Of a stretch of DNA of 64,000 nt, positions 31,079-64,000 are shown one piece after another. The DNA comes from a virus, in the IMG/VR virus record IMGVR_UViG_3300023172_003539, positions 1-64,000 of that record, one strand, 5' to 3'. The notes under the pieces are model-generated. The model did no database searches and was not told where the DNA came from. It worked only from the letters and a program-made list of their open reading frames with translations. Position 1 is the first letter of the stretch. The number at the start of each line of letters is the position of its first letter. A program made the translations under genes and the position numbers.

Positions 31079-31107
31079 TTGACTTTAATCTAAATAATCT
31101 ATATAAT
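31079..31107 (+). promoter_or_regulatory. Sigma70-type promoter of the sliding clamp gene
   Basis: TTGACT (31079-31084), exact 17-base spacer, TATAAT (31102-31107). ATG 31117 is 9 bases further, so the leader would be about two or three bases long. Confidence 0.75.
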
Positions 31108-38955: not shown

Positions 38956-39684
38956 ATGGATGAAAATATATTAAAAGATAGTTGGTTACCACCAAAACCC
39001 GTTAGCGAAGAAATCAAAGAAAGAATTAAAAAGGCCGGAAAAAGATTTTATGCGGCTGATAATATTAGCGAATTTATTGAATCGGGTGAAAAAGAAAAAT
39101 TAATTGACGAGTTGCAACAAAAATTCGAATCTGTTTTGGACAGTTTAATCATTGACAGGGAAAACGATCCCAACAGCAACGGTACAGGTAGAAGACTTGC
39201 TAAAATGTATGTTAATGAGATAATGTCTGGTAGATATTATCCAAAACCAGATGTGACAGCATTTCCAAACGAGGACGGAAGATATGATCAATTAATTGTG
39301 GTAAGAGCAGATATTAAAAGTATGTGTTCTCATCATCACCAACCGGTAACGGGAGTTTGTTATATCGGTTGTTTACCTGGCAAAAAACTGATAGGATTAA
39401 GCAAATACACAAGGATAGCACAGCATTTAGGACATAGAGGTCATTTACAAGAAGAATTAACGGAAATGATTGCCTATGAAATCACGAAACTAACCGACAG
39501 TCCGGCTGTGGGAGTTTATATACGAGCAAGACACGGCTGTTGTGAAAATAGAGGAATCAGAAGTGCCAACTCAAGCACACAGACCACAGTGTTAAAAGGA
39601 TTATTGAAAAATGATCCAGCACTGAAAAACGAATTTATGCACAATATACAATTACAAGAAACACAGTGTGGACCAATTGGGTAA
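38956..39684 (+). CDS. folE: GTP cyclohydrolase I
   Basis: 242 residues. CSHHHQPVTG and HGCCENRGIRS hold the zinc Cys/His ligands, with YTRIAQHLGHRGHLQEELT between. The enzyme makes dihydroneopterin triphosphate, first step of both folate and 7-deazaguanine (queuosine) synthesis. Together with queE, the QueD-like gene and the DpdA-like gene it makes the preQ0 route the likelier purpose. One base after galE. Confidence 0.95.
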   Translation: MDENILKDSWLPPKPVSEEIKERIKKAGKRFYAADNISEFIESGEKEKLIDELQQKFESVLDSLIIDRENDPNSNGTGRRLAKMYVNEIMSGRYYPKPDVTAFPNEDGRYDQLIVVRADIKSMCSHHHQPVTGVCYIGCLPGKKLIGLSKYTRIAQHLGHRGHLQEELTEMIAYEITKLTDSPAVGVYIRARHGCCENRGIRSANSSTQTTVLKGLLKNDPALKNEFMHNIQLQETQCGPIG

Positions 39685-39934
39685 AAAAAAGAAAACAAAA
39701 GAAAAACTAACATCAGACGGAATATGGTCTTATTCTGGAGATTATGGAGATCTTAATGTAGGAACATTATCCGAGTCAATGTCTGTTGATTTTGGTGATT
39801 TACACACACAACTGAATCTAGATTTTGATGATGAAAAATTAAAAAACAAATATCCTGCATTAAAAGATGCATGGGAACACTATAATAATGTATTAGATAT
39901 GTGTAGAGCAAAGGAAAAAGAAGATGAGAATTGA
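39677..39934 (+). CDS. Small conserved protein, unknown function
   Basis: 85 residues if it starts at TTG 39677 (MGKKKKTKEKL); GTG 39668 is the alternative. Contains YGDLNVGTLSESMSVDFGDL and a C-terminal helix ending KEKEDEN. Overlaps folE and guaC by short stretches, so translationally coupled. No motif. Confidence 0.5.
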   Translation: MGKKKKTKEKLTSDGIWSYSGDYGDLNVGTLSESMSVDFGDLHTQLNLDFDDEKLKNKYPALKDAWEHYNNVLDMCRAKEKEDEN

Positions 39935-40982
39935 TTATAACATACATTTAGATTATTCGGATGTGTTATTACAACCAAAAAGATCTACGTTGAGTTCAAG
40001 ACGTGATGTAGATATATTGAGAGAATTTAAATTTAGAAATAGTGGCAAGACACTTTCATATGTGCCCATCATGGCATCAAACATGGATGGTGTTGGCACG
40101 TTTTCTATGGCAAGAGTGCTACAAGAATTTAAAATGTTGACTGTGATCAGGAAACACTATACCCTGGATGATTGGAAACAAGCCGCAGGCACAGGACTTA
40201 AATTCAAATATGTATCTGCCTGTGTTGGAACAGGTGCCATATGGGACGAGAACGCACAGGACTATCAAACACTCAAACAGGTAATGAGTGCATTTCCAGA
40301 CATACCTTGTATCACAATTGATGTTGCCAATGCTTATCATGAATCATTTGTGGACTTTGTTGATAGAATTAGAACAGAATATCCAGACAAAGTGATCATA
40401 GCAGGCAATGTGGTTACACCAAACATGACAGAAGAATTAATTATCAAAGGTGCTGATGTGGTCAAAGTTGGAATAGGTCCAGGCTCGGTTTGTACCACAA
40501 GAACACAAACAGGTGTAGGTGTTCCACAATTTTCAGCAATCATGGAATGTTCAGATGCCGCAAATGGAGTTGGTGGACACATCATTGCTGACGGTGGTTG
40601 TACACAACCAGGCGATGTTGCCAAAGCATTGGGCGGAGGTGCTCATTTTGTGATGTTGGGTGGAATGTTGGCAGGACACGATGAAGGTGAAACAGAATTA
40701 AGAGATGGCAAGAGATATTTTTACGGAATGAGTTCTCAAACAGCATTGGACACACACGGACAAAGAAAAGATGGATACAGAGGCACAGAAGGTAAAACCG
40801 TTGTATTGGATGACAAAGGTCCGGTCAAAGACACTGTGGAACAGATACTGGGCGGAGTGAGAAGCACCTGCACTTACATTGGAGCAAGAAGAATTAAAGA
40901 TATGCCCAAGGCGGCACATTTTGTTAGAGTTAATAATGTGATCAATAGAGTTTATGACAGATACGAAACTGACAACAAGTAA
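39924..40982 (+). CDS. guaC: GMP reductase (IMPDH/GMPR family)
   Basis: 352 residues, the size of E. coli GuaC (347). No CBS domains. Catalytic loop GPGSVCTTR with C190; phosphate-binding IIADGGCTQPGDVAKALGGGA; YRGTEGKTV. Converts GMP to IMP with NADPH. Rare in phages; it may recycle host guanine nucleotides into adenine nucleotides or lower normal dGTP while a 7-deazaguanine is used. A purine phosphoribosyltransferase follows directly. Confidence 0.9.
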   Translation: MRIDYNIHLDYSDVLLQPKRSTLSSRRDVDILREFKFRNSGKTLSYVPIMASNMDGVGTFSMARVLQEFKMLTVIRKHYTLDDWKQAAGTGLKFKYVSACVGTGAIWDENAQDYQTLKQVMSAFPDIPCITIDVANAYHESFVDFVDRIRTEYPDKVIIAGNVVTPNMTEELIIKGADVVKVGIGPGSVCTTRTQTGVGVPQFSAIMECSDAANGVGGHIIADGGCTQPGDVAKALGGGAHFVMLGGMLAGHDEGETELRDGKRYFYGMSSQTALDTHGQRKDGYRGTEGKTVVLDDKGPVKDTVEQILGGVRSTCTYIGARRIKDMPKAAHFVRVNNVINRVYDRYETDNK

Positions 40983-41498: not shown

Positions 41499-42146
41499 AT
41501 GTTTAAATCACTACTAGCAGGTGTAGATAAGACACTTGTAAGAAATCTAGTAATTCTACACACACTCGTTATCGCTGTGTCGAACTATCTAGTCACGATC
41601 AGATTTGATTTATTCCCCGGTGCGGATCTTCCATTATTTGGATCGTTTCCATTAGCGGCGGCGGCATTCACATTTCCGATTGTTGTAGTAGCAACTGACT
41701 TGACTGTAAGGTTGGTCGGCAAGGAAGCGGGAAGGGCCGTTGTAGCAATGGCGATCATTCCGGCTATCGTGGCATCAGTACTGGTACTGTTGGCACTGGG
41801 TGATCCACACGCATACAGAGTTGGATTCGCATCAGGTACAGCATACGCGATCGGTACCATGCTGGACGTGTACGTCTTCCAAGCGATCAGAGAAAGATCT
41901 GACAACTGGTGGGCGGCACCGGCACTTTCGACCATCGCGGCAAACATAATCGATACATACTCATTCTTTTATGTTGCGTTCGCAGGATCCCTCGACGCAG
42001 AGGGCAAACTGAGTTGGATTGGTGCCAACTGGCATATCGTTGCACAGAACAACACATTGACCAAGATTGTGGTTGGCTTGATAGTATTCTTACCAGCATA
42101 TGGTATACTATTGAACAGACTGCAAGTTATAGGCAAGAAAAAATAA
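41499..42146 (+). CDS. yhhQ: YhhQ/VUT-family queuosine-precursor transporter
   Basis: 215 residues, about six hydrophobic segments, with LVIAVSNYLVTIRF, TFPIVVVATDLTVRLVGKEAGR (the conserved TD in the transporter core) and SYFFYVAFAG-like DTYSFFYVAFAGS. The family imports preQ0/preQ1. Codon and base use look richer in GC than the flanking genes (many gcg, ggc, ccg), and it has its own promoter, strong SD and a terminator-like hairpin, all hints of a recent, self-contained acquisition. It fits the 7-deazaguanine theme. Confidence 0.88.
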   Translation: MFKSLLAGVDKTLVRNLVILHTLVIAVSNYLVTIRFDLFPGADLPLFGSFPLAAAAFTFPIVVVATDLTVRLVGKEAGRAVVAMAIIPAIVASVLVLLALGDPHAYRVGFASGTAYAIGTMLDVYVFQAIRERSDNWWAAPALSTIAANIIDTYSFFYVAFAGSLDAEGKLSWIGANWHIVAQNNTLTKIVVGLIVFLPAYGILLNRLQVIGKKK

Positions 42147-42152
42147 TCTCTA

Positions 42153-42174
42153 GGGGGGAGTTTTTTCTCCCCCC
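42153..42174 (+). terminator. GC-rich hairpin after the transporter gene
   Basis: Perfect 8-bp stem GGGGGGAG (42153-42160) / CTCCCCCC (42167-42174) with a T6 loop, starting 7 bases after the yhhQ stop. No T-run follows the stem, so it may end transcription weakly or protect the 3' end. The next promoter starts two bases later. Confidence 0.55.
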
Positions 42175-42175
42175 A

Positions 42176-42204
42176 TTGACTATGAAATTAAATAATGTTA
42201 TAAT
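42176..42204 (+). promoter_or_regulatory. Sigma70-type promoter of the cupin/amidinotransferase operon
   Basis: TTGACT (42176-42181), 17-base spacer, TATAAT (42199-42204), 6 bases to ATG 42211; leaderless transcript predicted. Confidence 0.75.
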
Positions 42205-42210
42205 TGTATT

Positions 42211-42594
42211 ATGAAAGCAGGAAAAATTTGGGGAAACACGGAACTTGTACACGCAAATGGTGTGTTAGAATTCCATAGAATAGAATATAAAAAAGGCGGT
42301 GTTTGTTCTAAACATCTGCACGAATACAAATGGAACGGTTTTTTTGTTGAATCAGGAAAAATGAAAATTCGTGTATGGCAAAAAGATTACGATCTAGTAG
42401 ATGAAACAATATTAAATGCAGGAGACTTTACAAGAGTCAAACCTGGACTGTATCACTCATTCGAAGGTCTAGAAGACGGAGTTGCATTTGAACTGTACTG
42501 GGCGGAATTCAATCACAACGATATAAAAAGAGAATCAGTCGGTCATATCAAAACTGATAACGTAGTACGTTTGGACAAAAAGAAAGGGAAATAA
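42211..42594 (+). CDS. Cupin-domain protein
   Basis: 127 residues. Cupin motif 1: GGVCSKHLHEYKWNGFFVESG (as KHLHE...E), motif 2: AGDFTRVKPGLYHSFE. Three His and one Glu could bind a metal. Single-domain cupins bind small ligands or are isomerases/dioxygenases. First gene of a three-gene operon with the amidinotransferase-like enzyme (stop/start overlap), so it may act on the same metabolite. Confidence 0.75.
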   Translation: MKAGKIWGNTELVHANGVLEFHRIEYKKGGVCSKHLHEYKWNGFFVESGKMKIRVWQKDYDLVDETILNAGDFTRVKPGLYHSFEGLEDGVAFELYWAEFNHNDIKRESVGHIKTDNVVRLDKKKGK

Positions 42595-43616
42595 TGATCC
42601 CTATCAAAGGTTATGCAACCTTTCATCCTTTAAAACATTGTTTAATTGGGAAAAATTTTTCAAGCAACTTCTTTGAAAAAATTACAAAAAATACAAAAGT
42701 TTCTGATCCATTAAAAAAAATCGCCGATGAAACAGAAGAAGACTATCAAATACTCGAAAAACTTTTAAAAGATGCCGGTGTTGAAACACACAGACCAGAA
42801 TTTGACGAATCGTTGTATGACGGTAACTTTCATGGTAGACCTCCTGTGTGTCCTAGAGATCATTTTGGAGTGATCGGAGAAACTTTTTATGCCACACAAC
42901 CCACTAGTTTTTATTCTCATACATTAAAACAGATTGATCCAAAATCATTATTTTTACAAAACTGGGATTATGAAACAGCCATAGTTAGCACAGCAAATAT
43001 TTGTAGAGTCGGAAAAGACATATTCTGGGATAGAAAGATTACAAAATTATGGGATGGCACAGGAACAGAACAACAATGTATGGATCGTATCAATCAAATA
43101 AAAGAAAAATGGATCAATGAAGGATTTCGTGTACATGAATCAGACAGAGGATATCACTCGGACGGTGCTTTTTGTGTGGTCAAACCGGGCTGTATAGTAT
43201 CCTTGTTTGATGTACAGGATTATAAAACAGAATTTCCCAATTGGGACGTATTATATCTACCAGACCAATCATGGGACAAAATGAGTTCTTTTTTAAAAAT
43301 GAAAGAAAAGGTTGGAGGGAGATGGTGGTTAAAAGGAGAAGAACACAACAATCAATTAATAGAATTTGTCAATACTTGGCTAGATAAGTGGGTGGGTTTT
43401 GTTGAGGAAACTGTGTTTGATGTTAATATGTTATCTATCGATGAAAACACAATAATCTGTAACAATTATAACAAAGAAGTTTTTGAACATTTTAAAAAAC
43501 ACAAAATAGAACCAATCATATTTAATTTTAGACATCGATATTTTTGGGACGGTGGTGTACATTGTATCACACAAGATTTATACAGAGAAGGAACACAGGA
43601 GGATTATCTTGGCTGA
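42594..43616 (+). CDS. Amidinotransferase/pentein-family enzyme
   Basis: 340 residues. Pentein-fold signatures: RPPVCPRDHFGVIGETFYAT (split), catalytic His in YHSDGAFCVV (H188, D190), NMLSIDENTIICNN, and the C-terminal Cys nucleophile in GGVHCITQDL (C324). This is the arrangement of L-arginine:glycine and inosamine-phosphate amidinotransferases, which move the guanidine group of arginine; hydrolytic relatives (DDAH, ADI) are possible. Known amidinotransferases are of similar size. Coupled to the cupin and to the small gene after it. An unusual activity for a phage. Confidence 0.78.
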   Translation: MIPIKGYATFHPLKHCLIGKNFSSNFFEKITKNTKVSDPLKKIADETEEDYQILEKLLKDAGVETHRPEFDESLYDGNFHGRPPVCPRDHFGVIGETFYATQPTSFYSHTLKQIDPKSLFLQNWDYETAIVSTANICRVGKDIFWDRKITKLWDGTGTEQQCMDRINQIKEKWINEGFRVHESDRGYHSDGAFCVVKPGCIVSLFDVQDYKTEFPNWDVLYLPDQSWDKMSSFLKMKEKVGGRWWLKGEEHNNQLIEFVNTWLDKWVGFVEETVFDVNMLSIDENTIICNNYNKEVFEHFKKHKIEPIIFNFRHRYFWDGGVHCITQDLYREGTQEDYLG

Positions 43617-43956
43617 CATATATCATATTTTCGCGGATCATAACAAAAATGTAGATGCCAAAGAATTTGCAAAAAAAATGAGAATTTTTTTAGACAAATT
43701 AGTAGAAATGAAAAGGATGAAAAGTTATCGTTTGACAAGAGCAAAATTGGGATTCCGTTCAATGAATTTACCAGAATTCCATGTGATGATGGAATTTGAC
43801 AATATGCAACAACTCGATGATGCCATGACCTCGGTAATACGCAACGAAGAAAGTATCGACGAATCACACGTGGCATTTAATCAATTAGTAGACACGGAAA
43901 CAATACAACATTTTTTGTATAGAGATTTTCCAGACGGAGTTGACCAATCTAAATAA
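43609..43956 (+). CDS. Small protein coupled to the amidinotransferase (DUF6614-like)
   Basis: 115 residues from TTG 43609, chosen because a perfect AGGAGG (43597-43602) lies 6 bases upstream; an ATG at 43552 lies deep inside the previous gene. ADIYHIFADHNKNVDAKEFA, then SYRLTRAKLGFRSMNLPEFH and MMEFDNMQQLDDAM fit a small ferredoxin-like (dabb/antibiotic-monooxygenase style) fold; I recall this type as DUF6614. Its last codons hold the -35 of queE. Confidence 0.6.
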   Translation: MADIYHIFADHNKNVDAKEFAKKMRIFLDKLVEMKRMKSYRLTRAKLGFRSMNLPEFHVMMEFDNMQQLDDAMTSVIRNEESIDESHVAFNQLVDTETIQHFLYRDFPDGVDQSK

Positions 43957-43968
43957 ACATAGTATTAT
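43940..43968 (+). promoter_or_regulatory. Sigma70-type promoter of queE
   Basis: TTGACC (43940-43945), 17-base spacer, TATTAT (43963-43968), 6 bases to ATG 43975; leaderless transcript predicted. Confidence 0.6.
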
Positions 43969-43974
43969 TATATA

Positions 43975-44868
43975 ATGGAAAAAAAATATTATTATTCAGA
44001 GATATTCTATTCGATACAAGGCGAAGGACATTATACCGGTATTCCCACTGCTTGGATACGTTTCTTCTTGTGTAATCTACAGTGCAACGGATTTGGACAA
44101 TTAAATCCAACCAATCCAGACACTTATGAATTGCCATTTGAAGAGTTTGATGTTTCTACTGTGACAAGAGTAGAGGATTTACCTGTATGGAATAAAGGAT
44201 GTGATTCGTCATACACTTGGGCAAAAAAATATAAACATTTAATGGGTCAGGCTACTGCATCGGAACTAGCAGACAAAGTCATTGATATATTAAAAAATGA
44301 TTCTAATCCAACAGGATCGTTTCTGCATCCTGTGTCTAGGCAACAACAACATCTTTGTATCACAGGTGGGGAACCACTTATGCCTCAGTCTCAAAAAGCA
44401 TTTATAGAAGTCTACAAAGAACTAGTGAAAAGAAATAACATACCGGAATCTATTACATTTGAAACTAACGGCACACAAAAACTCACAGATGAATTTAAAG
44501 AACTTGTTAGAACTATAGATACAGAGATATTTTTTTCAATATCACCTAAACTATGGACCGTAGCCGGAGAAAAACGAGAAAAAGCAATAAGGCCTGATAT
44601 AGTTAAGGAATACAGAGAATTATCATTACAAGGACAACTAAAATTTGTTCTAGGCAACAAAGACGAACAATGGAATGAAATGGAAGAGGTTCTGAAACTG
44701 TTTAGGTCGACAGGTATCGATTATCCTGTATGGATCATGCCAGTGGGTGCTAGGGAAGAAGAACAGTCAGCAACAGCAGGTGAAGTGGCAAAAAGAGCCT
44801 TCCAGAGAGGATATAATGTGGCGGCAAGAGTACACGTTCACTTGTTTGGTAATGCTATTGGAACATAA
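43975..44868 (+). CDS. queE: 7-carboxy-7-deazaguanine synthase QueE (radical SAM)
   Basis: 297 residues. YSIQGEGHYTGIPTAWIRF is the diagnostic QueE start. The first two cluster cysteines are C33 and C37 (CNLQC), but the third appears only at C76 in GCDSSYTW, so about 38 residues are inserted where most family members have two. CITGGEPLM and ETNGTQ follow as usual. Converts carboxy-tetrahydropterin into 7-carboxy-7-deazaguanine. QueC, which makes preQ0, is not in the window. Own promoter. Confidence 0.9.
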   Translation: MEKKYYYSEIFYSIQGEGHYTGIPTAWIRFFLCNLQCNGFGQLNPTNPDTYELPFEEFDVSTVTRVEDLPVWNKGCDSSYTWAKKYKHLMGQATASELADKVIDILKNDSNPTGSFLHPVSRQQQHLCITGGEPLMPQSQKAFIEVYKELVKRNNIPESITFETNGTQKLTDEFKELVRTIDTEIFFSISPKLWTVAGEKREKAIRPDIVKEYRELSLQGQLKFVLGNKDEQWNEMEEVLKLFRSTGIDYPVWIMPVGAREEEQSATAGEVAKRAFQRGYNVAARVHVHLFGNAIGT

Positions 44869-53620: not shown

Positions 53621-54922
53621 TTAGTTGTATCTTTTTTTATAAAAGACATCAACATAGTCCCATTCATAACTCTTAAAAATAACATCAAAATTATAATCAT
53701 GAGATTGTACAAATTGTAAGGCATCTTCTCTTGCGGCATTCACATATGAAGCACCCGGAACAATATCCAAGTCTGACCATTTTTTCAGTATAAAGTTATT
53801 CTCAACTGTTGGTTTTAGTTTTTTATTATAAAGCAACTTGACTATTTCGCGAAAAGCAGTTCTATAACATACTTGTGGATCGGTATAAAAAGTTGTCTCT
53901 GCACTCAATAAAGAAATATGGTCGTGCTTCTGTGATAGTGTAAAGTCCAGACCTTTGCCGTCATTTTCTAATGTAAGTTTTTTATTATAAAGTATGATTG
54001 CTTGATGTCCGTAAGTGTAATTGATCACAGGATTAAAACAATCAAAAATATAATGTCTTGGAGATTTCAATGTGTCTGGCACAAAATCAAAAGCAAAATC
54101 CTTGTTTACTTTTAGTTTGGCAAAAACGGCATAGAAATATTCTGTTTCACTTGCTCGTGCGGCAGTTTGGTAGGCTTCCTTACGACCTTTGACTCCTTCG
54201 ATTATGTGAAGTTTGTTTGGTTTTTTCTTTAGATGTTGTTTTAAAAACATCAAATTTTCTTGTGCCTGCGGTTCTCCGTTGTGTATATAACAAATATCAA
54301 AATTTAATTTTTCACTGGGATTATCCATCAACAATGTGGGAGAATATTCGTACAACTCTTCTTTCATATCAAATCTCGGTACCAATAAATTTAAACGATT
54401 CTTGTCCAACACATATAACTTTTGATCTTCCCAAAAACTTGGTATTATGCTATGCTGTTTTTTGAAATAATAATTTGCATATCTTGTTTTTTGATTTTTT
54501 ATTTGTTCTGTCAAATTATCAAATGTAAATTTAAATGACGGCCATTCGTTGTATTCAAAATTGGTATCATGATAGTTTATATCCTTATAATCTCTCAAAA
54601 ACTTTATATGATTCATTTGAGATTTAAATTCGTTAGTGGGCAACAACATTATATCTCCCTCTCTCTGTGATTGAGTATTCCATACATGAATTTGTTTTTG
54701 TTGGTGTTGATCGGGAATAAAATTAAAATCAAAATGTTGTAAATTTACAAGATCACTTGTTAACCAAAAAAAATCAGTTTTTACACCATCAACAAAACTT
54801 TTAAGGATGTCAAAGTAACTTCCTACAAACGGAGTCGAAAGAGCATAAGGAAATTTATTGAATAAAAACTCCTTGTTTTTTTGATCTTTTTGAAAATCGA
54901 CAATTACACAATCAAATGCCAT
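53621..54922 (-). CDS. Glycosyltransferase-like (GT-A) protein, last gene of the operon
   Basis: 433 residues. A C-terminal half with CYIHNGEPQAQENLMFLKQH, KLHIIEGVKGRKEAYQTAARAS and EYFYAVFAKLKVNKDF reads like a GT-A sugar-nucleotide fold (start strand, G-R-x-x-A-x helix, DxD-like region replaced by FAKLK), so the donor site is not secure. The N-terminal half (FDCVIVDFQ...) looks like a second GT-A-like domain. Operon context (aminotransferase, epimerase) supports a glycosyltransferase. Overlaps the gene before it by 11 bases. Confidence 0.5.
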   Translation of the reverse strand: MAFDCVIVDFQKDQKNKEFLFNKFPYALSTPFVGSYFDILKSFVDGVKTDFFWLTSDLVNLQHFDFNFIPDQHQQKQIHVWNTQSQREGDIMLLPTNEFKSQMNHIKFLRDYKDINYHDTNFEYNEWPSFKFTFDNLTEQIKNQKTRYANYYFKKQHSIIPSFWEDQKLYVLDKNRLNLLVPRFDMKEELYEYSPTLLMDNPSEKLNFDICYIHNGEPQAQENLMFLKQHLKKKPNKLHIIEGVKGRKEAYQTAARASETEYFYAVFAKLKVNKDFAFDFVPDTLKSPRHYIFDCFNPVINYTYGHQAIILYNKKLTLENDGKGLDFTLSQKHDHISLLSAETTFYTDPQVCYRTAFREIVKLLYNKKLKPTVENNFILKKWSDLDIVPGASYVNAAREDALQFVQSHDYNFDVIFKSYEWDYVDVFYKKRYN

Positions 54923-55982
54923 TGAATTCTTTTATCCTTTTACAAATATAATCAATTTCACTATCGGTTAGGTATGGATAGATCGGTAAACTTAATGCAC
55001 GTTTACAAATTTTTTCAGCATTTGGATAAGACGTAAGCCAACCGTGGTTCAAGGTTTTTGAATAGTGTATTTTTGTTTCTATCCCGTGCTCCTTGAGATA
55101 CTTTTGTAAATCATCTCTTTTTTCATGTAGCAACACCAGTTTATGATAACTGCTTATAGTGTTATTTTTAGATTTTATAAATGATTCAGTAGGTAGATTT
55201 TTAAAATACCTTTTGGCCACTTTTTCTCTCATACTTTGCAATGAATCAAACTTATCTAATAAAAAATTTAATTGTGCTGAATGATCTTCTGGAATCACAC
55301 TGTTGTAACCATAATCCATGTTGTTGTGTAAGCCGTGTCTTCTTAAACTGATCAAGTTTTCGTATACCTGTAAAGAATCGGTTAATATCATGCCGCCTGA
55401 TCCAAAGCAAGGCATATTCTTCATAGGATCAAAACTAAAGATCGATATGTCACCCAGTGTTCCAGATGGAATTTTTTTAAACCAGTTTCCTAAATATGCC
55501 CCTTGTGACTGTGCGGCATCCTCTATGAGAAATATTTTATTATCTTCGCAATATTCTTTTAATCGATTGTAGTCCGCTACATTGCCATATAAATTTACGT
55601 AAAGTATGGCATTTGGTTTAGTCTGTAAATTTATACTACCAATATTTCCAATGTCGTCCACATCAACAAAACGTATTTTTGCACCTAACCTTTTGATTGC
55701 TCCCGCGGTGGCCACGTAACTTAATGCCGGACACACTATGGTCGACGATCTGTTTAGTCCCAGTGCCTTCATTGAAAAGTACAGTCCGTCTGTGGCTGAT
55801 CCCACTCCGACCGCATATTTTCTTTTATATTTTTTGCAAATGTTATTTTCTAATTTTTTTAGTTCTGCACCTAACAACACATTTCCAGAGCTCCATACTT
55901 TTTTCGCTCTACGAGTCAGTCTCCACGAGTATGCATCATACAATCTGTCGACACCGTTAAATTTTATTTTGTAACCACTCAT
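54912..55982 (-). CDS. DegT/DnrJ/EryC1/StrS-family sugar aminotransferase
   Basis: 356 residues, full length. AVGVGSATDGLYFSMKALG (substrate/PLP loop), VCPALSYVATAGAI, FLIEDAAQSQGA (Asp for the PLP pyridine) and IFSFDPMKNMPCFGSGG with the PLP Lys in a K-N position. Family members transaminate keto-sugars to make amino-deoxy-sugars for surface glycans. Preceded by an epimerase in the same operon. Confidence 0.88.
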   Translation of the reverse strand: MSGYKIKFNGVDRLYDAYSWRLTRRAKKVWSSGNVLLGAELKKLENNICKKYKRKYAVGVGSATDGLYFSMKALGLNRSSTIVCPALSYVATAGAIKRLGAKIRFVDVDDIGNIGSINLQTKPNAILYVNLYGNVADYNRLKEYCEDNKIFLIEDAAQSQGAYLGNWFKKIPSGTLGDISIFSFDPMKNMPCFGSGGMILTDSLQVYENLISLRRHGLHNNMDYGYNSVIPEDHSAQLNFLLDKFDSLQSMREKVAKRYFKNLPTESFIKSKNNTISSYHKLVLLHEKRDDLQKYLKEHGIETKIHYSKTLNHGWLTSYPNAEKICKRALSLPIYPYLTDSEIDYICKRIKEFNGI

Positions 55983-56901
55983 AATAGTATTCTAGTCCTT
56001 GATCAAAAGTTGTTTCTGGTTGATAATTCAATAATTTTTTGGCTCTGGATATATCCAATGTTCCTCTACGAGGATAAAGTTTATGAGCACCTGTATCAAC
56101 TATATCACTCTTACTGCCTGTGAGTTCTATGATCTTTTCTGCCGCCACACGTAATGATGTGGCATTGCCCGCAGTAATATTGAAACTTTGATTGGCTTCG
56201 TCTGATAATGTTGCTTTTATGATACCTTCTGCTGTGTCATTGATATAAGTAAAATCTACTTTGTTGTCACCATCGTGTACTTCTATTGTTTCGTTATTCA
56301 TTGCTTTCTGGAAAAATTTACTTAATACCCTGTCTTCCATGTCTCCTGGACCATAGACTCCGCTCGGTCTTACTATTGCATAATTTATTTTATGTTGAGC
56401 GTGATAATGTTTGACGAATCGTTCCGCAGTTAATTTAGATTCTCCATATAAATTGTTCGGTTTGGTATCTGCGTCTTCTTTGGTTCCATCGGAGAAGTGT
56501 CCGTATATCATTGACGAACTAACAAACACAAACTTTTTCACAGGCATATATTGGCAATGAGAAAGAAGATTTACTGTTCCTCCTATAATATTTTGTACTC
56601 CCACCCACGGATTATTGTTTACTATTTTTGCTCTAGGATATGATGCTAGGTGTATCACATAATCTGGTCTATTTTTAAAAGCAGACAATACATCATCTTG
56701 TTTTGTTACATCTCCGTTTTTACAATAAACGTTTTTCCAGTTTCTCTGTCTCCAAGAATATAATTTTTCGAGATCTTTTTCCGAAATCACTCCATATGTT
56801 TCTTTATTATCCATTACTATAACACTATGATTCATTTCAATTAATCTTTCAACAATCCTAGATCCTATAAAACCATAACCTCCTGTGACTAAAATTCTCA
56901 T
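55957..56901 (-). CDS. NAD-dependent epimerase/dehydratase (extended SDR)
   Basis: 314 residues. MRILVTGGYGFIGSRIVERL (GxxGxxG), VIHLASYPRA, catalytic SSSMIYGH and Y-x3-K in YGESK, and IVRPSGVYGPGD. Acts on a nucleotide sugar, either as epimerase or dehydratase, and would supply the keto-sugar for the aminotransferase. Overlaps both neighbours (26 and 4 bases). Confidence 0.9.
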   Translation of the reverse strand: MRILVTGGYGFIGSRIVERLIEMNHSVIVMDNKETYGVISEKDLEKLYSWRQRNWKNVYCKNGDVTKQDDVLSAFKNRPDYVIHLASYPRAKIVNNNPWVGVQNIIGGTVNLLSHCQYMPVKKFVFVSSSMIYGHFSDGTKEDADTKPNNLYGESKLTAERFVKHYHAQHKINYAIVRPSGVYGPGDMEDRVLSKFFQKAMNNETIEVHDGDNKVDFTYINDTAEGIIKATLSDEANQSFNITAGNATSLRVAAEKIIELTGSKSDIVDTGAHKLYPRRGTLDISRAKKLLNYQPETTFDQGLEYYYEWLQNKI

Positions 56902-58385
56902 AAAACTTTTACTCCATATTTGTTGGTAAATGCTTTACCATCATCTTTGTCATTTACTATAGGTTGTCCTTTTATATTCAAACTGGTGTTAAGCAGTATA
57001 GGGCAACCTGTTTTCTTTTTCCATTGCGTAAGCAATTCATAAAAACCTGGATTGTCTGCTTTAGACACTGTTTGAACCCTACTCGTGTTATCGTAGTGTA
57101 TTATGGCAGGAAAGTCTTTACCATGCGTACAAACCGCTGTGTGTTGCATATAAGGGGTGTTTTTAACACCTTTAGGTAGGGTAAAATACTCGTTCACATC
57201 CTCTTCTAATATGGCTGGTGCGAATGGTCTAAACTTCTGTCTTTTTTTAATACCATTTACCAAATCCTTGATTTTTGATCCTCTAGGATCAGCAAGTAAT
57301 GATCTATTACCAAGTGCTCTTGGTCCAAACTCCGCCCGACCATTGGCCACTCCCACCATTTTATTTTCCAACAATTCCTTTATGAGAGCATCCACAGGAT
57401 ATTCACCCTCTATGTTCGTGCCCAAAAATGGATGTTTCCAATTTAGGTGTCTGTGCATCGAAGCGGCTATACAACCCAACGAACTACCCGCATCTCCGGG
57501 ATTGGGCATGATCCATGATTTATCGTATATTTTCTTGTTCATTAAAATTGCATTGGCCACACAATTCAATGCCACGCCTCCACCATAACATAAATTACGA
57601 CTTTCACCATATTTGCTCACAGCACGTTGTCCGTCTGGTATGTAAGTCGTACTCCATTGCCATATATGAGTGAGTGCTTCTTGTATGACTTTTTGAATGG
57701 ATGCGGCAAGATCCATGGGATCCGCTTCCGGTAACCAATTTCCTATTCCTCTGTGTAAATTTCTTTTTAATTCCAGAGTTCGATAATCCAACAATTCATT
57801 GTAGATATTATCTCGGTACTTTGGTGTTCCGTATGCTGACATTCCCATCAATATGTATTCTTCCTCTGCGGGTTTCAATCCAACTCTTTGTGTAAAAGCA
57901 GAATATAAGATTCCCAGTGAATGAGGATATTCCATGCTTTCCAGTTTTTCTATTTCGTTGCCTTTGGCTTTCCATATAGTCATAGTTTCCCATTCTCCTA
58001 TGGCATCCACACACAACACCATGGAATCTGTAAAGGGCGATGTGAAAAAACTTCCGGCCGCATGCGAATGATGATGATCTACATACTGGTCAATTTTGAT
58101 TCCAAACTGTTTTAAATGTTCCGATGGCAGATTCTGTGTTGTAAAAACTTCCGACCATTGTCCCGCTCTAATCTGTCGTCTCTTTTTTAACCATGGTTTT
58201 TCATAATACACCACTTTGTCAAAAGGACCATAACTCATTGCCTCGTTCACTATCCCCCAGTTCAGGTGATGATCATTTTTTATCTTGCTGTATCTCTCGC
58301 TATGTGCGGCCCATAGAATATCTCGGCCGTCAACCACAGCCATGGCGGCATCATGATTCATACAATTTATTCCTAATATTCTCAT
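56898..58385 (-). CDS. NodU/CmcH-type carbamoyltransferase
   Basis: 495 residues. N-terminal HUP-like domain with GINCMNHDAAMAVVDG and DHHHSHAAGSFF (metal-binding His), GGVALNCVANAIL; C-terminal EFGPRALGNRSLLADPR and ILLNTSLNIKGQPIV. These enzymes transfer a carbamoyl group from carbamoyl phosphate to hydroxyls of sugars or antibiotics. Slightly shorter than bacterial NodU (~560). Carbamoylation of a phage- or host-surface sugar is the likely role. Confidence 0.9.
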   Translation of the reverse strand: MRILGINCMNHDAAMAVVDGRDILWAAHSERYSKIKNDHHLNWGIVNEAMSYGPFDKVVYYEKPWLKKRRQIRAGQWSEVFTTQNLPSEHLKQFGIKIDQYVDHHHSHAAGSFFTSPFTDSMVLCVDAIGEWETMTIWKAKGNEIEKLESMEYPHSLGILYSAFTQRVGLKPAEEEYILMGMSAYGTPKYRDNIYNELLDYRTLELKRNLHRGIGNWLPEADPMDLAASIQKVIQEALTHIWQWSTTYIPDGQRAVSKYGESRNLCYGGGVALNCVANAILMNKKIYDKSWIMPNPGDAGSSLGCIAASMHRHLNWKHPFLGTNIEGEYPVDALIKELLENKMVGVANGRAEFGPRALGNRSLLADPRGSKIKDLVNGIKKRQKFRPFAPAILEEDVNEYFTLPKGVKNTPYMQHTAVCTHGKDFPAIIHYDNTSRVQTVSKADNPGFYELLTQWKKKTGCPILLNTSLNIKGQPIVNDKDDGKAFTNKYGVKVL

Positions 58386-60867: not shown

Positions 60868-61660
60868 TTTTTTCTCCTATTATTTTTTTAAATTCGGGTA
60901 ACATTAACATTATAGCATCTTTATGTGCTTGGTCAAGCGGATGAGTTGATGCTCTCGGATAGTCATTTAAAAGTGCCCATTGGTTAAATCCCATATGCCT
61001 GTCTCCAAAAGTGAACCATTTGGTAAAATCTATTTCTTTTAAAAGATTTTTTAATAATTTGTCGTTTTGGTATAATAATTCAAATTCTTCCCAGAATAAT
61101 GTGTTATCGGCGAGTGTAAACATAAATGGTATTTTCTTTTTTTCTAATATATTTTGTAACCAAACGATGCTTTTCCAACTTAGATATGTTTCATGATAAC
61201 GATTTGCCGCATTCTTATAAAGTGAATCGGCAAATGCTGTGACTTTCGCATCAGAAAACTCTTTTCTTCTTTTTTTAAAATCTCGTATTACTGAATCATT
61301 ACCTATCAAAGTTTTTAATACTTCTGCTTCGTTTTCTGTACAGTCCCAGGGGGTTATAGTGGCCCAACGAGTATCTTCTAATATGTTATGTCTAGGCATC
61401 GCCCAATCATAACGTGAAGGAAAAGTCCACATGACAGTCACAGCAACCTTTCTGTTATCGTTGTCCGAAACTGCGTTGAACACCCTTCTGGCTATACCGG
61501 AGTTCCCTAACCCTCCTTTTGCCGAATTGACAAAATCCATGCCTGTTTGTTGTGACAACAATGCCGCCCATGACATTTTTGAAGGATTGATACCATCGTC
61601 GTCAGATAATTCGTTACCAAATGTAAAACTACAACCACCTGCTACCAATACGTCACTCAT
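60851..61660 (-). CDS. SGNH-hydrolase-like protein
   Basis: 269 residues. GGCSFTFG (8-15) matches the GxSxx block with S11 as candidate nucleophile, KGGLGNSG the Gly-Asn block and HPLDQAHKDAI the D-x-x-H block near the C-terminus. SGNH enzymes deacylate sugars or lipids; phage versions occur in similar operons. Overlaps the radical SAM gene by 8 bases. Confidence 0.7.
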   Translation of the reverse strand: MSDVLVAGGCSFTFGNELSDDDGINPSKMSWAALLSQQTGMDFVNSAKGGLGNSGIARRVFNAVSDNDNRKVAVTVMWTFPSRYDWAMPRHNILEDTRWATITPWDCTENEAEVLKTLIGNDSVIRDFKKRRKEFSDAKVTAFADSLYKNAANRYHETYLSWKSIVWLQNILEKKKIPFMFTLADNTLFWEEFELLYQNDKLLKNLLKEIDFTKWFTFGDRHMGFNQWALLNDYPRASTHPLDQAHKDAIMLMLPEFKKIIGEKNDQMD

Positions 61661-62852
61661 AAATCTTTAATAGATTATTTAAATCCTTAAAAGTTTCTCC
61701 AAAATTTTCTTTCCTGACGGAATCGATTGATTTTATTTTTTCAGTTAATGCTTTTTTCCAATCCTTAATCTTGTAGTCAGGTTCTCCGTTAATATAGTCA
61801 ATAGCCGTCTGTATTTCTTGTTGGTATATTTCAGTTTTTCTAAGTTTGTCAATTATCTGTTGCTTGAGCTCTCTAGGAATCTGTTGTATATCAAACTCCA
61901 CAGGATGATGCAATATGTTTATGTACCAAAAATCTGGATTCCATTCTTTTACTTTATGTGCTAACTCGTCAATGTTCCATATGTTAAAAAAATTTAGAGT
62001 TGTGCATATCTGCGTAGAAAGATTTTTTAATCCTGAATTTAAAAATCGATTTATGTTTGAATCAACTTCTGTCCATACAGCAGGATGTCTTTGATACTCA
62101 AAACGTTTTTCAATATCGTCAATGCTGAATGCTATTTCTACCCTTTTAAAATGTGGCCAAATGTCTTTTACTGCTTCTTCCGGATACTGTGTACCATTGG
62201 TGTTGTAATGAACTTCTATTTTATCTGCCACTCCTGCTTCCACACACTTACGTAAAATTGAAAATTGCTCTTTTATCATTAATGGCTCTCCGCCCGTGAT
62301 CTCAAAAAATCTTATCGAGTCTATGTGCTTCTCTAGATCTTCATAAAATTTGTTAGGCTGTCTTGGCCATAATCCATCTCGATTGAATTTTTTCCAATAG
62401 TCTTTTCTGTTTGGGTCTATCCTGATCATGTCGTTCGTCCATTGAGAACTTGAGTGAGGCGAACATATTCTACATTTTAGATTACAAATATTCCCTAACT
62501 TTAAATCAATAAATCTAGGCGAAACTATATTTTTTTGTATATGAGTTTGACCTATTACTCCTGCCTTTAACCACATATGTTGTCTCTTTGAAGTTTTACC
62601 TACTGCTTCTTCTTTCCAACAACTGCTACAACTACTGGGTTTTTCTCCATTTAAAAATTGTTTTCTCAAATCATCCATGGCATCGGAATTCATTACTTCC
62701 GATATCGAATGTTCCGTTGTATTGTATTTTTTCCCGGAAGTGTCTTTTAATTCTTCCCTATACAAACAGCAAGGCTTGTACCTGCCATCGGGCCTAGTTT
62801 CTAAACTAGTCCATGGAAGATGACACATATTACTTTTTAAATATTTTTCCAC
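61653..62852 (-). CDS. Radical SAM protein (twitch/SPASM-like) 1
   Basis: 399 residues. CNLKCRIC (C123, C127, C130) is the radical SAM cluster; FEITGGEPLM follows. N-terminal CHLPW...GRYKPCC (C10, C28, C29) and CSSCW (C75, C78) look like auxiliary Fe-S ligands of the SPASM/twitch type, placed before the barrel. Enzymes of this class modify peptides or sugars. A second, similar gene follows with a 16-base overlap. Confidence 0.85.
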   Translation of the reverse strand: MEKYLKSNMCHLPWTSLETRPDGRYKPCCLYREELKDTSGKKYNTTEHSISEVMNSDAMDDLRKQFLNGEKPSSCSSCWKEEAVGKTSKRQHMWLKAGVIGQTHIQKNIVSPRFIDLKLGNICNLKCRICSPHSSSQWTNDMIRIDPNRKDYWKKFNRDGLWPRQPNKFYEDLEKHIDSIRFFEITGGEPLMIKEQFSILRKCVEAGVADKIEVHYNTNGTQYPEEAVKDIWPHFKRVEIAFSIDDIEKRFEYQRHPAVWTEVDSNINRFLNSGLKNLSTQICTTLNFFNIWNIDELAHKVKEWNPDFWYINILHHPVEFDIQQIPRELKQQIIDKLRKTEIYQQEIQTAIDYINGEPDYKIKDWKKALTEKIKSIDSVRKENFGETFKDLNNLLKIYE

Positions 62853-64000
62853 CAGTCTAATATCCTTTTATCTTTTTCAAGTATTTTTGTTATGTCTTGA
62901 TTCCTTAATTTATCGATTGATTCTTGTCTGCTCTTACCACTCTTTTTTCCCCTGAAAGCATCAAATCCCAAAAACATATCATCGATATTTTCTCTCATCT
63001 TTAAATTTTTGAGAGTGTCTATCAATGCCTGTTGTTTTCTGTTTGCCTTTGGTTCCATGTATTCTAATGCTTCATCTATAATTTCGCACATGAGTTCTCT
63101 AGGCAATGCCAACGGACTCAACACAGCCGATGCACTAAAAGTGAACATCACTTTGGTCAATATTTCTACATCTAATTCCTGGCTCAGATCAAACATATTT
63201 TTTAATTCTAATAATCCTGGCATTGTGATTGTGAAATCTAATCTCATTTCCCTTGATGTTTTTGCTACCGCCAATCCTTTTTTAAAATTACCTAACCATT
63301 CTTTGTAATTCAATCCATCACGTATGTATTCTCCCACATCTCCTGTTCCGTCGATCGAAGCACATATTTGCCAATCCTGAAACTGTGGCAACAACTTAAA
63401 AAGATCAATATTCTTAAATGTTGTTCTACTTAAATTGGTATTATATCTAACATAAACATCCTTTGAAAATCCCAAATCAATTATCCTTTGCATACTGTTC
63501 CAGTGTATTTCCCACATCAACGGTTCTCCGCCACACCAATATATTTCTTTTATTTTTTTTGTTTCTATCGCATCAGTAAACTCTTGTACTATTTGTGTGT
63601 CTTGAAAATTTTTAATTTGTTCACGCAACGGAGAAGCCATCCATGGTTGAGAATCTTCGTTCCATGTTTTGTTTTTCCTCGACTCGGCTTCCCAACTGGA
63701 ACTCAACATATCTCCGCACATTCTACATTTGAAATTACATAGATTATTAAATCTATAATCAAAACTTATCGTAGGCATTGTGGTTGCTCCGTTTTCGTCT
63801 GTGCTTTCAAATGCTTCGTCTATTTTATTAGCAAAGAGTTTGTTCCAATAAGATCTATAGACATTTGTATTCAACAGTTTATGATCACATACCTGGCATT
63901 CGGATAATTCTTCTCCGGCTAGCATTCTTCGTCTCACAGAACGCATATGTTCTGAATTCCAATGTTCTTCTAACGTTAGAGGTTTATACTCATTGGCATC
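62837..64000 (-). CDS. Radical SAM protein (twitch/SPASM-like) 2, 5' end outside window
   Basis: Open to the right end of the window; the frame upstream of an internal Met at 63946 reads EEHWNSEHMRSVRRRMLAGEE, the same pre-cluster helix as in the first copy, so the true start is beyond 64000. CNFKCRMC is the cluster and WCGGEPLMW follows. SECQVCDHK is the CxxC ahead of the barrel. The two copies probably arose by duplication. Confidence 0.85.
   Translation of the reverse strand, partial: DANEYKPLTLEEHWNSEHMRSVRRRMLAGEELSECQVCDHKLLNTNVYRSYWNKLFANKIDEAFESTDENGATTMPTISFDYRFNNLCNFKCRMCGDMLSSSWEAESRKNKTWNEDSQPWMASPLREQIKNFQDTQIVQEFTDAIETKKIKEIYWCGGEPLMWEIHWNSMQRIIDLGFSKDVYVRYNTNLSRTTFKNIDLFKLLPQFQDWQICASIDGTGDVGEYIRDGLNYKEWLGNFKKGLAVAKTSREMRLDFTITMPGLLELKNMFDLSQELDVEILTKVMFTFSASAVLSPLALPRELMCEIIDEALEYMEPKANRKQQALIDTLKNLKMRENIDDMFLGFDAFRGKKSGKSRQESIDKLRNQDITKILEKDKRILDWWKNI

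Follow-up and report, generated by a model that had tools for sequence, protein, structure and literature searches.

Genes and features of the locus

The window analysed here covers bases 1-64,000 of a marine phage's IMG/VR record, which is 83,620 bases long. As proposed in an earlier note made from the sequence, it carries three genuine, overlapping genes on one strand, encoding a cupin, an amidinotransferase-like protein and a DUF6614 protein. The first (42211-42594, plus strand) starts with ATG and encodes a cupin of 127 amino acids (Pfam Cupin_2, E 1.4e-8; phrog_7851, E 6e-13) in which the HxH and PGxxH metal-binding motif is visible. The ATG of the second gene (42594-43616, plus strand) overlaps the cupin stop codon by 1 nt, and its product of 340 amino acids is a pentein-fold amidinotransferase-like enzyme, hereafter AMT. 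The third gene (43609-43956, plus strand) overlaps the AMT stop codon by 8 nt, an overlap also found in many homologs, and encodes a protein of 115 amino acids that matches DUF6614 (PF20319) at E 3.5e-24 and 85.5 bits, above the curated cut-off of 25. Its TTG start does lie behind an AGGAGG ribosome-binding site (43597-43602, plus strand), as previously described; the site is located within the 3' end of the AMT gene, 6 nt ahead of the TTG.

The operon has lineage-specific neighbours. Upstream lie a YhhQ-family queuosine-precursor transporter (41499-42146, plus strand; NF008406, E 1.7e-41; TIGR00697, E 1.6e-25) and GTP cyclohydrolase I (FolE; 38956-39684, plus strand; PF01227, E 4e-38), and downstream is a QueE-like radical SAM gene (43975-44868, plus strand; phrog_2076, E 4e-54; TIGR03963, E 4e-12) with its own promoter at 43940-43968. 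An IMPDH-like gene at 39924-40982 of the window matches GMP reductase (NF003470, E 3e-141) and is adjoined by a xanthine/guanine PRTase-like gene. Elsewhere in the window, a minus-strand block (56898-58385, 54912-55982 and 61653-63946) encodes proteins that by eye are carbamoyltransferase-like, DegT-type aminotransferase-like and SPASM-like radical SAM-like, and resembles a modification or glycan island.

Promoter and hairpin

A sigma-70-like promoter, TTGACT-N17-TATAAT (42176-42204, plus strand), precedes the operon; it scores 11/12, has a TG before the -10 element and ends 6 nt ahead of the cupin ATG. A promoter of the same type is found upstream of most homologous cupins, and the call is based on this conservation and not on the count of promoter-like sites in the region, which shows no excess over shuffled sequence. 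The operon had been credited with a strong leaderless promoter: the promoter itself is borne out by its retention in relatives, and the spacing suggests a leaderless message for the window's phage only, given that in several homologous cupins the leader is longer and includes an AGGAAGG ribosome-binding site. A -10-like hexamer exactly 6 nt before an ATG, together with a matching -35 hexamer, occurs at several genes (42204/42211, 43968/43975, 44898/44905, 46178/46185 and 33529), an excess in a small count (7/96 genes) that suggests repeated leaderless promoters in this phage. The motif ATCTAAATA, located between the -35 and -10 elements, recurs upstream of homologous cupins (e.g. L010, L016, L020 and L027) and at window positions 31079 and 43940; it is possibly a lineage-specific promoter element.

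The hairpin reported in front of the operon is present between the YhhQ-like gene and the promoter, at about 42153-42174 (plus strand). It is perfect (GGGGGGAG-TTTTTT-CTCCCCCC) and the sole one of its kind within the window, and many homologous loci have a G-rich/C-rich hairpin at the corresponding position. It likely serves as an insulator or as the RNA 3' end of the upstream unit.

Family, predicted fold and active site of AMT

Neither AMT nor the other members of its family gave a meaningful model match in Pfam or NCBIfam. A sequence profile built from 17 relatives and searched against solved structures (PDB) matched AGAT at E 4.8e-23, as well as SxtG, HsvA and StrB1, and found no pentein hydrolase at E <= 0.1. 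The predicted structure points in the same direction. In Foldseek searches with the AlphaFold model (pLDDT 81.5, pTM 0.85; low confidence at residues 270-272), the first seven chains were amidinotransferases, with E values of 1e-17 to 1e-15 (SxtG, 1.3e-17). ArgZ, ADI (5.5e-10) and DDAH (8.5e-9) were also found, the latter two at least five orders of magnitude below the weakest amidinotransferase match. AMT has the fold of AGAT/GATM, SxtG, HsvA and StrB1 (Foldseek E values as low as 1e-17) and resembles them over the whole alignment and in four active-site equivalents, whereas ADI and DDAH have the pentein fold and the Cys-His-Asp core in common with it but match its structure much more weakly and its sequence profile not at all. 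Both comparisons uphold the amidinotransferase assignment of the earlier note over a closer kinship with ADI/DDAH hydrolases, and the catalytic Cys is invariant.

Four AMT residues, C324, H188, D190 and D89, align with AGAT C407, H303, D305 and D170. Three of these (H188, D190 and C324) are identical in 43/43 relatives, and D89 is kept in all 40 relatives of this set that cover the position; in a larger family set, C324 is present in 92/92 and D89 in 90/92 members. The previously proposed catalytic pattern thus holds for its individual residues but does not amount to a complete triad, as the triad Asp of AGAT (D254) aligns with S132 of AMT. This position is mostly Ser or Asn in the family and Asp in only 4/92 members, whereas of 13 penteins at the same loci that are divergent or closer to the canonical form, 8 keep Asp. 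Further residues set the family apart: E272, within an inserted segment, is fixed (91/92), and W318 and D319, just before GGxHC, are each present in 91/92 members, with glycine replacing D319 in 12/13 of the more canonical or divergent penteins. Compared with AGAT, AMT is shorter, substitutes Ser/Asn for Asp254 and has the additional invariant E272 and an RHRxFWDGGxHC loop where AGAT has RNANSLGGGFHC. No residue in the AMT alignment corresponds to AGAT Arg322, the anchor of the arginine carboxylate, a point against arginine, which is here a presumed donor.

Cys, His and the two guanidinium-binding Asp residues, all of them conserved, fit an AGAT-like covalent amidino-enzyme mechanism. With the triad Asp lost, the canonical mechanism cannot hold unchanged: either it has been modified or, with lower likelihood, the enzyme is non-catalytic.

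Distribution of AMT

AMT belongs to a large family, nearly all of whose members come from uncultivated phages. A first scan recovered 51 viral loci, and a profile scan of IMG/VR at least 556 confirmed stretches encoding AMT relatives, compared with 4 of 50,697 GenBank phage records (one is a cyanophage, and the other three come from the same single-cell virus set). Among genome contigs, five MAG loci contain AMT homologs; they were considered as cellular homologs, but most of the contigs look like phage, with L054 and L055 carrying the phage module, L056 and L058 also phage-like, and only L057 of bacterial appearance.

Guanidino transfer had been regarded as unexpected in a phage, a view that needs revising insofar as GenBank and BFVD hold phage proteins labelled as glycine or inosamine-phosphate amidinotransferases. 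Phage-borne proteins similar in sequence or predicted structure occur in Synechococcus phage S-SCSM2R, Campylobacter phage CP20 and an uncultured member of the Caudovirales (A0A6J5LX73), their labels originating from annotation. The S-SCSM2R protein is 31% identical to AMT and is encoded in a KdsA/KdsB and oxygenase context.

Partner genes

Gene order differs between close and distant relatives of the window: it is (YhhQ)-cupin-AMT-DUF6614-QueE in the former and C130-C129-AMT-DUF6614, or variants thereof, in the latter. Linkage was scanned with DUF6614 or C129, not AMT, as the query, counting as partners genes within four genes of the query, and the AMT-DUF6614 cluster was rechecked with trimmed profiles to guard against inflation by ORFs extended out of frame across the 3' end of AMT. 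Across 54 DUF6614 loci, the partners were AMT (31), C130 (31), C129 (29), QueE (22) and cupin (20); across 65 C129 loci, they were C130 (62), DUF6614 (60) and AMT (24). When 20 large AMT-bearing records were searched whole, DUF6614 was present in 18, C130 in 11 and C129 in 8, and in several AMT-bearing records these genes sit far from the first-found AMT. The record containing L131, a 343-kb phage, has a C130-C129-DUF6614 cluster (G007, C1:3591-4857) more than 100 kb from an AMT/FolE/QueD/QueE island. Neither the DUF6614 nor the C129 query matched anything in the 50,697 GenBank phage records.

The constant partner of AMT across distant phages is thus DUF6614, often accompanied by C129 and C130. 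The operon had been presented as a cupin-AMT-DUF6614 unit whose order might recur in other phages; that order proved limited to the window's lineage, and the cupin is confined to the same T4-like phages. Marker partners are lacking within four genes at 29/83 AMT loci, and the pathway in which AMT acts may hence differ between phages.

The partners themselves are sparsely characterized. A literature search returned no paper on DUF6614; its model (pLDDT 74, moderate; best Foldseek E 7e-5) predicts a dimeric alpha+beta barrel of ferredoxin-like type. Bacterial DUF6614 genes were examined for informative context and set aside, as 12/398 genomes in one phylum match and the better matches stand alone beside unrelated genes. 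C129 matches ATE_C in 9/11 members (best E 2e-9) and Ate1 among solved structures (E 0.004), which identifies it at the sequence level as an ATE_C-type, arginyl/leucyl-tRNA-protein transferase-like protein, though it differs from those transferases in usually consisting of one short domain (about 140 amino acids). C130 is a 'PCPYAxxA' protein with conserved Cys/His residues and invariant W, CP-A--A, H and YY--W positions; it has weak matches to DUF6875/DUF1415 in Pfam and chance matches only among solved structures.

Proposed function and alternatives

From the family, predicted fold, conserved residues and gene linkage of AMT, we infer its donor, chemistry and shared pathway as follows. The guanidinium group of L-arginine, or of an arginine derivative, would be held by Asp89 and Asp190, with Cys324 attacking the guanidino carbon and His188 acting as acid/base. 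Ornithine, or another leaving amine, would then depart, leaving an amidino-thioether on Cys324 from which the amidino group would be handed to an amine acceptor; the job of AGAT Asp254 would be taken by other residues, perhaps Glu272 or Asp319. AMT would be part of a small phage pathway in which DUF6614 is its constant partner, joined by the aminoacyl-tRNA-transferase-like C129 and by C130 in most other lineages, and by the cupin in the window's lineage. The linkage with C129 invites speculation that the acceptor is aminoacyl or peptide-like.

AMT is accordingly proposed to be a phage-specific subfamily of pentein amidinotransferases that, in a phage-specific pathway with DUF6614, moves an amidino group from arginine to an amine, a reading to which we assign a probability of about one in two; it probably belongs to uncharacterised phage chemistry. 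A bolder version is tentative and on balance doubtful: AMT, DUF6614, C129 and C130 would form a phage-exclusive pathway that many uncultivated aquatic phages share and that no sequenced isolate has as a full set. Drawing on aminoacyl-tRNA and arginine, it would assemble a guanidino-bearing group on a protein, nucleic acid or small molecule, or attach one to it, through pentein chemistry that dispenses with the classical triad Asp. The family warrants attention in that Pfam and NCBIfam have no model for it, phage isolates almost lack it, and it is consistently tied to the unstudied DUF6614 and often to a homolog of tRNA-dependent transferases. If its chemistry is amidino transfer, phages would have a widespread guanidino pathway, and a pentein active site would be able to work without the classical Asp.

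The surroundings of the operon in the window make a role in the 7-deazaguanine pathway attractive, whereby a deazaguanine, or a derivative, made by FolE, (QueD) and QueE would receive an amidino or guanidino group from AMT, for phage DNA or tRNA. Genes for FolE, GMP reductase, the PRTase, the YhhQ-type transporter and QueE surround the operon in the window and its relatives; L116 has the order FolE-QueD-C130-C129-DUF6614-AMT-QueE, L131 has FolE, QueD and QueE near AMT, and L120 has FolE near AMT. Moreover, 7-deazaguanine DNA bases are known from phages (PMC6884629). Against this, L116, L120 and L131 share the window's backbone (sheath-like..GT-GalE-FolE), and since all Que-bearing cases have this one backbone, they represent a single lineage's island. 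Outside that backbone, loci with AMT and DUF6614 lack Que genes, and there are loci with cupin-DUF6614-QueE that lack AMT. Que genes are also carried by Far-T4 phages anyway: queuosine genes are an established feature of these T4-like phages, which like the window have GTP cyclohydrolase, PRTase and Que genes, but amidinotransferase is not mentioned in their description (Roux et al. 2015, PMC4360716); the pelagimyophage paper mentions neither queuosine nor amidinotransferase. TGT (PF01702) was found neither in the window's record nor in 32 AMT-bearing records, which are fragments and in which a divergent DpdA could escape PF01702; QueC was likewise missing from the window's record and gave weak matches in 3/32 of the same fragmentary records. 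Given the restriction of Que genes to one backbone, the lack of TGT and the weak QueC matches, QueE and FolE are treated as lineage neighbours, and with them YhhQ is judged to lie outside the AMT module. Distant relatives and the TGT/QueC searches thus weaken the deazaguanine partnership, which is improbable, and deazaguanine DNA modification is not supported, with no TGT and essentially no QueC in these fragmentary records. The earlier note suggested that the product could be a guanidino compound for host metabolism, for DNA or for an antimicrobial-like molecule; of these candidate roles, the one in DNA is weakened by the same searches.

Three further readings concern AMT itself. It might be a guanidine hydrolase that deiminates or dihydrolyses arginine, agmatine or arginine residues with water as the acceptor, shifting host arginine/nitrogen or polyamine metabolism while the phage infects. 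The Cys-His-Asp core is common to pentein hydrolases, and ADI, DDAH and ArgZ are among the Foldseek matches, yet in both the profile and the fold search amidinotransferases score many orders of magnitude better, which makes hydrolysis unlikely. ADI and DDAH also have Glu or Asp at the position of AGAT Asp254, so that its loss does not favour a hydrolase. A link to polyamines is suggested by L042-L044, in which AMT lies behind ribonucleotide reductase and a gene whose L044 version has a match to AdoMet decarboxylase (SpeD-like), and by the presence of SpeD-derived arginine/ornithine decarboxylases in marine phages (PMC9992855). Alternatively, AMT could be a plain auxiliary metabolic gene, a GATM or StrB1-like amino-sugar amidinotransferase whose guanidinoacetate or guanidinylated sugars would go into host metabolism or phage-encoded glycans. 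This is in line with the glycine/inosamine-phosphate amidinotransferase labels of phage homologs in GenBank/UniProt, with the KdsA, KdsB and 2OG-Fe(II) oxygenase genes adjoining AMT in S-SCSM2R, with the DegT aminotransferase adjoining it in L036, and with the reported enrichment of the creatine-pathway gene GAMT in ocean viruses (PMC11360552). It is nonetheless quite unlikely, as neither Arg322 nor Asp254 of AGAT is conserved, no Pfam/NCBIfam model matches, and the AMT-DUF6614 core occurs without consistent GAMT or glycan genes. Finally, the lost triad Asp and the divergent tandem AMT copies of several phages (e.g. L004, L016 and L023) would be compatible with an altered pentein that binds a guanidine (arginine or an arginine-tagged peptide) without turnover, as a sensor or a partner of C129/DUF6614; retention of the Cys, the His and both guanidinium-binding Asp residues in many divergent members fits catalysis better, and a non-catalytic AMT is considered very unlikely.

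Additional pentein genes accompany AMT at some loci. Two AMT copies per locus, often tandem and divergent, were observed in L004, L016, L023, L049, L091, L111 and L117. A second, more canonical and amidinotransferase-like pentein shares the phage locus with AMT in L034 (6339-7253), L051 (6366-7280), L078 (5389-6300) and L100 (4211-5125), and in these four proteins the triad Asp is kept within an FDAAN or DAAN sequence.
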